Below, in pieces: positions 32,125-35,972 of a stretch of 42,155 bases of DNA (position 1 is its first letter; every line of letters begins with the position of its first letter). A program made the translations under genes and the position numbers. Origin of the DNA: a virus; IMG/VR virus record IMGVR_UViG_3300017742_000025, positions 1 through 42,155 of that record; one strand, given 5' to 3'. The notes beneath the pieces were generated by a model, which saw only the letters and a list, made by a program, of their open reading frames with translations, had not been told where the DNA came from and did not search any database.

Positions 32125-34014
32125 TTATGCCATAGATGCAGTATTGAGACCGTATCCTCTACGGTTACGTCGTGATGTGTGGTTAACTGTTGTATTGTTA
32201 CTCGTATCACCACCTCTCACCGCACTCACATTATTGCTTGTTCCGCCCTGATGATGCATAGCCAGGTCTTCACGCATTGCTTGGTTCTCAGCGGATAATG
32301 ATTCTACGTCATTTTCACCTTCTTTTGCTACCATCTCAGGAGATTTGGAACTTCCCTCTGTCCCAGATTCATCTAGTTGTTCGCTCTTACCACGATTGAA
32401 CATACCACTAAACATACCGGCTTGTTTCTCGTCTCTGGCTTCGATACCAGCAACTAATCTATCCGCTGAATCCGCAGATGCTTTGGCCATTTTATCAGTA
32501 GACTCTTCTGTGGCAGCAATAAGAACATCACTCTTTTCTTGTGCAACTATTCCTTCTTCTTCCGCTATCTGTTCGTCTTTTGCTTTCTTTTTCGCTTGAG
32601 CTTCTTCTTTGAACTTGGCCGCATTATCGGTATCCATCAATTCCATATTAGCCATATTGTCTAAGAATTCTGGAGTCTCAATTCCCAAGAACTCGAATAG
32701 TTTACCAGCCATTTCACCAATCTTCTTGGCGATTTTAATGAATGCGTTACCAAAGTGTGCAATACCATCTTTAACAAATGCGAGTCCGTAGAATAGAACA
32801 TCAAAGACCGATGAGAATCCTAATGCATCTCTTACTTTCATCATAGCAAAAGCGAATAAACCAATAGCGGCTGCGATTGCAAGACCGATAAGAATAACTG
32901 GAGCCATAGGTATTAATGCTGCAGTGATAGATGATATCATACCGGAGAAGAAAGCTCCGATTGCCGGCATGGCAGTTGTTACCATAAACAATCTAAAGGC
33001 TTTCATTGCAGTCATCATTGCTTTTACGTTTTTAAACAACTTAGCAAACTTCATGATAACCGCACCACCAAATTGCAATGCAATACCACCGATGATAACA
33101 CCAACCATCAATGCGTTATCTCCAAGCAATGATAATCCGCCTTTCACATCTCCTTCAAAAATCATTACAATGCCGTTAATAATATCAGTAATACTTTTAA
33201 TTGCAGCGTTTAAGAAGTTTGCCAGTGTTTCGGGCGAGAATATCATCATTGCGATAGCGCCTAGGCTTGCTAAGAATCCACCGCCGCTTTTGATTCCGTC
33301 CGCAAACCCATCAAACTTACCACTAAGACCTTCAAGTCCCGATGCCATTTTCCCTAGCTTTGAGCTTTGATCTGCCGCAGCTTTTGCTGATTCACGTCGA
33401 GCTTCTTCGCTGCCAGCCGCATCTTGTACGAGTTTTAAATGTTCCATTGCAATCTCAGCGGCTTGATTGTCACCGTTTTGAATCGCTTCTGTTAACATTT
33501 GTTGGCCTTCGGTGAAGCTTTCTTGGATTCTCGTTTGGTTTTCTGAGTTAACGAATAACCTATTATTACCTTTGCTCAATTCTTTTATTTGAATCTCTAA
33601 AGCCGACATATCAAGTTGATCAGACAGGATAGCGTTTTGGCTTTTTATTCTGTCAGTCAATTGTACAATGCTTTGTGCCGTACCAAGCGCAGTAACTTCG
33701 GCCTGAGTTGCCCTAGTCATTTCTAATTCATTCGCTTGAGTAACCAAGTTATCAAGGTTGTCTAATGCAGTTTCCATCTGTTTATCAGTGGTGTTTGGAT
33801 TAGCAAGACGATTGCCTAGTTGTATTAGGGTATTTTCTAGTTGTTGTGTACTACTATCTTCTGATTTAAGTTTAAGTTCGTTAATCTTATTTCCGGCAAT
33901 AAGAAGCTGCTGCTGCGTTTTAGCAGCATCATTATCGTTTTTAATATTCGAAGCAATATCTTGTAAGCTTTTAGTCTGCTCATTCATAAACTTGCCGCTT
34001 TCATCTCTTGCCAT
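32125..34014 (-). CDS. 29: tail tape measure protein (gp29-like)
   Basis: 629 aa with a helical, Gln/Asn/Glu-rich N-terminal third (NELKLKSEDSSTQQLENTLIQLGNRL), a hydrophobic centre with several membrane-length segments (residues about 245-400, e.g. VILIGLAIAAAIGLFAFAMM), and a charged C-terminal part ending NRRGYGLNTASMA. This pattern is typical of tape measures and the T4 gp29 length is 590 aa. It follows, in transcript order, the gp26 frameshift gene and an EF-hand protein, the position tape measures have after tail chaperones. Sequence identity to gp29 is not evident by eye. Confidence 0.75.
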   Translation of the reverse strand: MARDESGKFMNEQTKSLQDIASNIKNDNDAAKTQQQLLIAGNKINELKLKSEDSSTQQLENTLIQLGNRLANPNTTDKQMETALDNLDNLVTQANELEMTRATQAEVTALGTAQSIVQLTDRIKSQNAILSDQLDMSALEIQIKELSKGNNRLFVNSENQTRIQESFTEGQQMLTEAIQNGDNQAAEIAMEHLKLVQDAAGSEEARRESAKAAADQSSKLGKMASGLEGLSGKFDGFADGIKSGGGFLASLGAIAMMIFSPETLANFLNAAIKSITDIINGIVMIFEGDVKGGLSLLGDNALMVGVIIGGIALQFGGAVIMKFAKLFKNVKAMMTAMKAFRLFMVTTAMPAIGAFFSGMISSITAALIPMAPVILIGLAIAAAIGLFAFAMMKVRDALGFSSVFDVLFYGLAFVKDGIAHFGNAFIKIAKKIGEMAGKLFEFLGIETPEFLDNMANMELMDTDNAAKFKEEAQAKKKAKDEQIAEEEGIVAQEKSDVLIAATEESTDKMAKASADSADRLVAGIEARDEKQAGMFSGMFNRGKSEQLDESGTEGSSKSPEMVAKEGENDVESLSAENQAMREDLAMHHQGGTSNNVSAVRGGDTSNNTTVNHTSRRNRRGYGLNTASMA

Positions 34015-34025
34015 GACTTAATTCC

Positions 34026-34358
34026 TTACTTTTTATTGGTGAATGCTTGAGTGCCAAAGAACGCTGCTACAATACCAGCAACAGCAACAAAATATGTTGG
34101 TGCCATACTACCTAATGTACTTTGTGCTTGGTCTAATCCAGCAAGAGATGCAGCAACTACGGCAAATGGATATAACAGTAAGCCAAACAGAGCAAACCAT
34201 GTCATCTTCCGTTGGGCATCACGCATTGCATCTGCGTCTTCGAGTTCTTTACGTTTGAACTCGAGGAACATTTTCTCTTCCTCTGCCGTTACATGTCCAT
34301 CGCCATTAGTATCTGCCGGATGAAATGCATCAGGTTTTTTAATTTCTTCGTCGCTCAT
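34026..34358 (-). CDS. EF-hand membrane protein, 110 aa
   Basis: Canonical EF-hand loop D-T-N-G-D-G-H-V-T-A-E-E at residues 16-27 (ligands Asp16, Asn18, Asp20, Glu27). Two membrane segments follow: WFALFGLLLYPFAVVAASLAG (about 50-70) and APTYFVAVAGIVAAFFGTQAF (about 85-105). GAGGTAAGC before the ATG overlaps the stop of the gp26-extension frame. Cyanophages have a similar calcium-loop protein in the tail region (memory). Role unknown: holin-like, or a tail/membrane component gated by calcium. Confidence 0.8.
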   Translation of the reverse strand: MSDEEIKKPDAFHPADTNGDGHVTAEEEKMFLEFKRKELEDADAMRDAQRKMTWFALFGLLLYPFAVVAASLAGLDQAQSTLGSMAPTYFVAVAGIVAAFFGTQAFTNKK

Positions 34359-34361
34359 TGC

Positions 34362-34565
34362 TTACCTCTTTCGGTTTCGTTTAGCTTCTTCTTGTTTAAG
34401 TCTATCATTTTCTTCTTGTATGTGTTTCTGAAGTAGAGAAACATAAATCTCCCTCTCCCACGGCACCATATTATCGAGCTCGCTCAAGTTATAATTATGA
34501 TGCTGCATCATCGCGAAGTTAGTCTTAAAGTGATTGACTAAACTATCGTGAGAGAGGCCTACGAA
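34362..34565 (-). CDS. -1 frame extension of gp26 (frameshift product C-terminus)
   Basis: In the -1 frame the codons after the slippery site read FVGLSHDSLVNHFKTNF, then MMQHHNYNLSELDNMVPWER and on to a TAA at 34362-34364, 67 residues in all. An internal ATG pair at 34506-34511 would make a 49-residue protein, but no ribosome-binding site precedes it, whereas the EF-hand gene after it has a clear one. The HNYxLxELxxMxPWERxIYV block is a conserved-looking core. The fusion would be about 301 aa. It is probably the gp26-gp51-like tail assembly protein. Confidence 0.7.
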   Translation of the reverse strand, partial: FVGLSHDSLVNHFKTNFAMMQHHNYNLSELDNMVPWEREIYVSLLQKHIQEENDRLKQEEAKRNRKR

Positions 34566-35266
34566 AAAAAACTTTCAAGTCCCTTGAGCTCAAGCTCATT
34601 CTCGTGATTACATGACTTACATTTAAAGTTCAATGTTTTACTAATCGCCGGAATCTTTTGTAAAAATTCTGCAATCTTTCTAAACTGTGAACTATTCAAA
34701 CTATCTAAGAAATCTTGTACATTCTTAGTAGATTCATCTTTACATGCGTAGACAGCATCTGCATCAAAGATACTTTCCATACATGATACAATCAATTTCA
34801 TTACAACGTTAACTTTACCTAGGTCTTCTGGATTGATTCCGGCTACATCTGCAACAGATGGATAGCGCATAGTAATCCCTACAGTATCTGTAATCTGAAT
34901 AACATTGTCGTGGTCTTCTAATCCTTGCACTTCAAGTTCGTCAAGATTAATAGTCATCTCATTTGGTGTTTCACATTCGGAACACTTCAAAGAAATCTCC
35001 GCAACCTCACCTACTGACTTAGCACGTAGTTTGAGGAATAAGAATTCCAGGTCAAACGTTGCGAGTCGATTCACATCGATATCACCTATAACGCAAGCCT
35101 TAATAACATCTTTAACTGCCTTTGTGATTGCGACATTGTCTTTAGATTCCATCGCAATCATCAGAATCTTTTCTTCTTTAACCAAATAAGGTCTGTATTC
35201 TACTTCAACACCTGTTGAAGGGATAGTTGTTGTATAACGCGAACTATTTACAATTGGTAACGCCAT
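34559..35266 (-). CDS. 26: gp26-like baseplate/tail assembly protein
   Basis: 235 aa with the T4 gp26 pattern: N-terminal YTTTIPSTGVEVEYRPYLVKEEKILMIA, then LEFLFLKLRAKSVGEVAEISLKCSECE and C-terminal TLNFKCKSCNHENELELKGLESFF. The two CxxC pairs form a probable zinc ribbon. T4 gp26 belongs to the baseplate-hub pathway. It is transcribed just before the EF-hand and tape measure genes. Its last sense codons hold T8 before the TAG, so part of the product probably continues in the -1 frame. Confidence 0.85.
   Translation of the reverse strand: MALPIVNSSRYTTTIPSTGVEVEYRPYLVKEEKILMIAMESKDNVAITKAVKDVIKACVIGDIDVNRLATFDLEFLFLKLRAKSVGEVAEISLKCSECETPNEMTINLDELEVQGLEDHDNVIQITDTVGITMRYPSVADVAGINPEDLGKVNVVMKLIVSCMESIFDADAVYACKDESTKNVQDFLDSLNSSQFRKIAEFLQKIPAISKTLNFKCKSCNHENELELKGLESFFS
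34562..34573 (-). other. candidate programmed -1 ribosomal frameshift site
   Basis: Read on the minus strand: AG-T-TTT-TTT-TCG-TAG. The heptamer T_TTT_TTT is in the 0-frame X_XXY_YYZ register; two codons later comes the gp26 stop (34559-34561). Slipping by -1 makes the next codon TTC and joins the gp26 frame to the 67-residue extension. Confidence 0.7.
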
Positions 35267-35312: not shown

Positions 35313-35972
35313 TCAACCACCGGAAGCAGCACTAATCGCTGAGCCGGTAGATGATAACGCTCCTTCCGGAACATATCTGTCATAAGCAAAAGTCACTGTG
35401 ATTTTCTGTACACCACTTTCTTCTGAGTTGCTTAAATTAATTGCAGCCATATCAATCGGGTATGCGTTTTCCAATTTAACTCCATACACTGGAACATTCT
35501 TCTGGTTAAGTTGTTGTATTACTACATCAACCGCATAGTCAGATTTATAACCTGAACGATATAAGTCTGTATCAAAAATGCTTGAAATCCAATTATCAAA
35601 CATTACTCTCATATAATAATCATTCGTCAATATAAATGTCATTTCAACATCTGCATCAATATATGTATATGGAACTTTAACACTCTGTGCCGCGCCTTGG
35701 TAATCCATCGTACTTAAAGACCTACCTGGCATGCTAACCGTTTCACATAGAATCGAAATATCTCTTGGGTCTGGTACAAGATTACGCTTATCAAAGTTTC
35801 CTGAAACAGCGTTGCCTACTTGAGCCAACAGTCCACCAACTACGTTTTCTTTGTTAGGGCTACGCAATAGTGTTATCGCACCTGGCGGTGTAAAGAACAC
35901 ATTGAATCTGTTAGTTGGTGCTACTCCGCCCTTTTTAGAAAGTACGGATTTCATTTTATCGATGGATGACAT
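35313..35972 (-). CDS. tail tube family protein (gp54- or gp19-like)
   Basis: 219 aa with the tube-protein fold pattern: NRFNVFFTPPGAI, then LCETVSMPGRSLSTMDYQGAAQSVKVPYTYIDADVEMTFILTNDYYMRVMFDNWISSIFD, and late KLENAYPIDMAAINLSNSEESGVQKITVTFAYDRYVP. The SMPG loop and the paired strand motifs fit the T4 gp19/gp48/gp54 superfamily. In this tail block it is most likely the tube initiator gp54, but gp19 cannot be excluded. It overlaps the next gene upstream by one base. Confidence 0.75.
   Translation of the reverse strand: MSSIDKMKSVLSKKGGVAPTNRFNVFFTPPGAITLLRSPNKENVVGGLLAQVGNAVSGNFDKRNLVPDPRDISILCETVSMPGRSLSTMDYQGAAQSVKVPYTYIDADVEMTFILTNDYYMRVMFDNWISSIFDTDLYRSGYKSDYAVDVVIQQLNQKNVPVYGVKLENAYPIDMAAINLSNSEESGVQKITVTFAYDRYVPEGALSSTGSAISAASGG

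Follow-up and report, generated by a model that had tools for sequence, protein, structure and literature searches.

The window analyzed here, meaning the whole 42,155-nt stretch of DNA, carries on its minus strand a gp26 gene (34559..35266) that ends GGA CTT GAA AGT TTT TTT TCG TAG, raising the question of whether the frame lying open beyond this stop is a gene in its own right or part of a longer gp26 product. Judging from comparative sequence evidence, we consider it very probable that this marine T4-related phage makes two versions of one tail chaperone by a -1 ribosomal slip at the T run. The 235-aa gp26 ORF, which has its own Shine-Dalgarno sequence and would represent the short form of the chaperone (TAC-N), matched PF12322 over residues 10 to 234 in a profile search (E=1.3e-63, 215 bits against a cut-off of 24.5) and PHROG 150 'baseplate hub' (E=1.8e-68); the full-length PF12322 match above the gathering score makes it a member of the T4 gp26 family. 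The preliminary description had read the end of this frame as AGT TTT TTT TCG TAG, with a canonical T_TTT_TTT heptamer in the correct register and a single codon between it and the stop, and both points were correct. The heptamer (34571-34565, minus strand) sits in the gp26 register inside a run of eight T's, and the zero-frame TAG (34561-34559) follows after a single TCG codon. As this was the only in-register T_TTT_TTN among 6712 codons scanned in 21 window ORFs, and the same match recurred in homologues, the heptamer is not a chance occurrence.

After a -1 slip, the reading would continue TTC GTA GGC CTC TCT CAC GAT ... for 67 codons up to a TAA at 34364-34362, giving an extension (34362..34565, minus strand) of the length given in the preliminary description. 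This extension matched PHROG 634 'baseplate hub assembly catalyst' (gp51; E=2.4e-28) and is thus homologous to the gp51 C-terminal domain. The predicted gp26-gp51 fusion is 301 aa long, with the junction ...LESFFFVGLSHD... No ATG, GTG, or TTG occurs in the extension frame of the window before 34511, and the first ATG (34509..34511, minus strand), earlier described as devoid of a ribosome site, indeed formed a Shine-Dalgarno duplex of only -1.2 kcal/mol, compared with -7.3 for gp26 and -7.1 and -6.1 for the next two genes. The expectation of coding-type substitution upstream of this ATG was examined in 38 lineages of the window type, on 16 extension codons shortly past the gp26 stop; most of these codons precede the first ATG, and the block ends close to that ATG in most sequences. 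Identity at codon positions 1, 2, and 3 was 85, 89, and 52%, respectively, and pN/pS was 0.17 in the -1 frame, whereas the two alternative frames gave 1.9 and 2.4. Stops were absent from the -1 frame in all 38 lineages and present in 27/38 and 36/38 in the other frames. Residues of the extension ahead of its first ATG are therefore under purifying selection, in the -1 frame only. Window-type relatives generally had neither a start codon nor a ribosome site for the extension, and the conserved block had no ATG, GTG, or TTG ahead of it in 31/79 lineages, the window included. On this sequence evidence, the -1 frame codes for protein right from the slip site, without a start of its own in the window.

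A slippery run at the same place in relatives had also been anticipated. All 80 of the nearest gp26 loci contained the heptamer, invariably as NNT TTT TT[TC] NNN stop, followed by a -1 extension of 59 to 66 codons wherever the contig did not end too early. For a wider set, we added loci seeded with P-SSM2, nt-1, phiM9, T4 gp51, and Ackermannviridae sequences, and dereplication at 85% identity left 98 homologous gp26-family ORFs. An extension domain lay downstream in the -1 frame in 82 of these (79 by script and three by reading, namely L017, at a contig end, and the Mylasvirus loci L084 and L177). In-register T_TTT_TT[TCG] was found in 79 of the 82 ORFs with the extension (78 by script plus L235, whose heptamer lies 9 codons upstream of the stop) vs none of the 16 T4-type gp26 or gp51 genes without it. 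Of 78 lineages, 31 had a run of six T's, another 31 a run of seven, and 16 a run of eight; therefore, it is the slip register, not the run length, that is conserved. Codon choice at the FF pair was NNT|TTT in 75/75 lineages tested, compared with 33 expected from each gene's codon usage, an excess whose nominal probability is not literal because the lineages are related. T4-type gp26 retains FF yet encodes it within GAG TTC TTT, providing a natural control.

The heptamer was not universal, since L252, L259, and L093, all Ackermannviridae-type, kept the homologous -1 extension and had GAG ATT TTC ATT TAA or CTT TTC AAG TAA near the stop in place of the canonical heptamer. The extension at these loci must depend on a weaker slip of a single codon or on some other mechanism. 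L252 and L259 belong to the Ackermannviridae, a group that includes Salmonella phage SFP10 (L092), and L093 is Vibrio phage D508. On freshwater-type contigs (L199-L236) the heptamer directly abutted the stop (GAT TTT TTT TGA/TAA), and many had an ATG overlapping the stop; frameshifting and coupled initiation may be combined there. At L232, L233, and L235 the heptamer was at its usual place and the zero frame ran several codons further, such that the short form differs in its tail.

RNA folding downstream of the slip site was compared with that of synonymous recodings of the same protein. The 120 nt past the stop folded with unusual stability, at a mean z of -3.2 in 56 lineages and -4.7 in the window. 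With codon shuffling confined to the same alignment column and amino acid, the observed mean folding energy was -31.9 vs -25.9 (sd 0.5) in the shuffles, a difference of -6.0 (z -11) past the heptamer vs -1.7 (z -3.7) in a control inside gp26; because this control also gave z = -3.7, the folding signal is partly phylogenetic. The predicted structure (34452..34557, minus strand) consists of an 11-bp stem, S1 (34557-34547 with 34462-34452), which starts 7 nt past the heptamer, pairs with the PWER codons, and closes a multiloop with S2 (about 34544-34536 with 34524-34517) and S3 (34503-34496 with 34470-34463). Under this model 76.9% of cells paired vs 38-49% for slid versions, and 40 cells changed on both sides vs 22.9 (sd 5.7) in shuffles (0/500). 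The covariation came from S2 and S3; S1 alone showed none beyond the shuffles (2 pairs changed on both sides, with shuffles as high) and was drawn from its pairing strength. RNAalifold over all 37 sequences collapsed to four pairs because register differs between lineages. In P-SSM2-type cyanophages the long-range structure was not seen (z -0.6) and a shorter hairpin occurred instead, within 0-60 nt (z -5.6); the folding test showed no clear RNA structure in the freshwater group, and no Rfam family matched. The fold, which lies about 7 nt past the heptamer, probably helps the slip and may be an addition to what is known of the T4-like chaperone frameshift.

Upstream of the heptamer, at a distance of 8 nt, AAGGGA (34580..34585, minus strand) is a candidate internal Shine-Dalgarno-like stimulator. 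Mean anti-Shine-Dalgarno pairing of this stretch was -6.0 vs -5.0 kcal/mol (sd 0.15) in synonymous recodings (0/300), a modest effect. Such an element would stimulate the slip and, as far as could be checked, may be new.

Directly upstream of gp26 lies a tail-tube-like gene (35313..35972, minus strand; PHROG 45 tail tube, E=1.7e-36; Phage_TTP_2, E=4.7e-8). Downstream, a gene for a 110-aa membrane-type protein (34026..34358, minus strand), which has hydrophobic stretches and a weak EF-hand-like motif and is conserved in window-type relatives, separates the chaperone from a 629-aa ORF (32125..34014, minus strand). The 110-aa gene was not seen in this position at loci of the P-SSM2 type (L099) or the freshwater type (L199). 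The 629-aa ORF had no library or family match and was kept in near relatives; by its position, size, and hydrophobic/helical make-up it is a probable tape measure protein. A structural model of gp26 (pLDDT 87.8) aligned best, among 750 chains, with the solved structures 3fgx (Z 8.1) and HK97 TAC 2ob9 (Z 7.5), the next match reaching 4.4. The alignment covered gp26 residues 1-95 only, at an rmsd of 3.8 A over 84-85 residues, and a Z near 8 is not decisive alone; over these residues the short form models like a tail assembly chaperone. 3fgx is also treated as a chaperone relative in PMC9603447. The gp51-type model had extra C-terminal helices, and a Foldseek search of the PDB with it returned no useful match, nor did PDB chains match gp26 or gp51 by sequence.

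T4 itself has a different arrangement. The preliminary description regarded T4 gp26 and gp51 as separate neighbors, and while they are separate genes, gp51 is not the extension alone: it comprises a full gp26-like domain (PF12322, residues 1-201) to which the extension is joined in frame, and T4 gp26, the domain alone, is divergently transcribed relative to it. JSE, AS-gz, and Thanatos-2 shared this layout. Among 18 isolate genomes or large contigs, all four T4-type phages had a short copy plus an in-frame long copy, and the others had one gp26 domain and no in-frame fusion. Within the 42-kb window, itself a genome fragment, there was no second gene encoding the gp26 domain plus extension in frame. 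From this copy-number pattern, T4 appears to have replaced the frameshift with a duplicated in-frame gene. Vibrio phage nt-1, classed in Straboviridae, retains the heptamer. In Campylobacter phage CPt10 (L090), positions 856-1590 encode a gp51-like protein (PHROG 23772) whose extension is in frame, suggesting a second lineage with the two-gene solution.

These data bear on other accounts of the same sequence. If gp51 were a small gene of its own that is translated through coupled re-initiation past the gp26 stop, the T run would merely encode FF. An ATG overlaps the gp26 stop (TAATG/TGATG) in several lineages (nt-1, phiM9, RHph_N34, Yut3, and the freshwater group) and gp51 is annotated as a separate CDS in many records, both of which favor this account. 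However, no possible start lies ahead of the conserved block in the window or in 30 other dereplicated lineages, selection acts on residues before the first ATG, and that ATG has no ribosome site. Furthermore, FF codon choice is fixed to NNT TTT, even though T4-type gp26 shows that FF can be kept as GAG TTC TTT, and T4 gp51 shows the functional form to be fused to the gp26 domain. Re-initiation is therefore an improbable source of the extension, although coupled initiation may add free gp51 in those lineages with an ATG at or near the stop. The separate annotation is itself uneven: at L083, L095, L091, and others, gp51 was given an internal start (P-SSM2), not called as a gene (S-WAM2), or listed as a separate hypothetical (pf16).

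Slippage of RNA polymerase on the T run, which would shift the frame in an edited mRNA and not on the ribosome, is known to generate trans-frame products (PMC5009743) and would have eight T's to act on in the window. We rate it as still less probable than re-initiation, since the run is down to six T's in 31/78 lineages and seven in another 31, with 16 having eight, the tandem-slip register is constant, T_TTT_TTC and T_TTT_TTG variants occur, and structured RNA at ribosomal spacer distance points to translation. Homopolymers are also generally error-prone, such that a sequencing or assembly indel could mimic a frameshift in a continuous gp26-gp51 gene; the homologues refute this, as 80/80 contigs and isolates such as P-SSM2, nt-1, phiM9, pf16, and S-WAM2 show the same frame relation with runs that vary from six to eight T's, leaving the artefact a negligible chance.

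For the ribosomal -1 slip, we infer an efficiency at which most ribosomes would stop at the TAG to yield the short form, gp26 (TAC-N). In a fraction of ribosomes, the two tRNA-Phe would re-pair one base back on T_TTT_TTT, presumably stimulated by the RNA structure and the Shine-Dalgarno-like element, and reading on in the -1 frame would produce the 301-aa gp26-gp51 fusion (TAC-NC). By analogy with lambda gpG/gpGT, the short and long forms may coat the tape measure protein and recruit the tail tube protein. T4 and its close relatives, where the heptamer is absent, would obtain the same two products from a pair of genes, gp26 for the short form and gp51, read in frame, for the long one. On balance, we favor a fuller version in which the frameshift of the window lineage is driven by the large multi-branched RNA (S1, 7 nt past the heptamer, closing about 84 nt with hairpins S2 and S3) together with the internal Shine-Dalgarno-like element, other lineages have a shorter structure in its place, and this stimulator was lost in T4 when gene duplication took over the two-product output. 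If true, the stimulator would be elaborate for the frameshift of a phage chaperone gene, and the RNA element is a defined target for testing.

The preliminary description had suggested that the T4 superfamily has its own version of the tail chaperone frameshift of lambda G/GT, and the suggestion withstood each of the refuting conditions set out there. It fits the HK97-chaperone-like fold, the paralogy of gp26 and gp51, and a gene order in which gp26/51 stands between the tail tube gene and the probable tape measure gene. The idea is, however, already in the literature. An older review listed gp26 and gp51 only as hub assembly chaperones (PMC3004832), and lambda-type G/GT frameshifting has been described as widely conserved 'except T4' (PMC5009743). 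According to PMC10885494 and PMC12846349, Vladimirov, Gautam and Davidson (Virology 2022, 566:9-15) identified the T4-like chaperone genes, their short and long forms, and poly-T shift signals. Citing that work, the PRFect paper states that some T4-like phages have a short gene plus a long fusion gene in place of the frameshift (PMC10885494), and the Adele paper credits it with poly-T signals in T4-like TAC-N genes (PMC12846349). On the strength of these citations, the T4-like chaperone frameshift is already known. Our data support a simple account in which T4 gp26 and gp51 correspond to the short and the long form of a single tail chaperone; most of the T4-superfamily relatives sampled would make both by frameshifting, and T4 by means of a duplicated gene read in frame. 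gp51 would accordingly be mis-annotated as a separate gene, or omitted, in many cyanophage and Vibrio phage records.

Among the closest known systems are the T4-like gp26/gp51 chaperones as attributed to Vladimirov et al. 2022, which belong to the same family, with short and long forms sharing the gp26 domain and poly-T -1 signals. T4 itself differs in having two genes (gp26 and in-frame gp51) and no heptamer, whereas the window has one gene and a frameshift. The TAC locus of Vandenendeviridae/Andersonviridae (Pakpunavirus Adele, PMC12846349) likewise combines a conserved poly-T motif at the TAC-N 3' end with an open -1 frame, but the motif is reported as GTTTTT and the account given of that locus names no RNA structure. 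HK97 gp13 (2ob9) and 3fgx resemble the window protein in that predicted gp26 residues 1-95 align with them (Z 7.5 and 8.1, respectively); unlike them, gp26 contains an additional domain, ~140 residues long and bearing zinc-ribbon-like cysteines, that these chains do not cover. As in lambda gpG/gpGT, the gene lies before that for the tape measure, here a probable one, the slip site is located just ahead of the short-form stop, and the C-terminal domain would be present in the minor product only. In contrast to lambda, the slip sequence is another one, the window gp26 domain is larger (235 aa), and a long structured RNA lies downstream.
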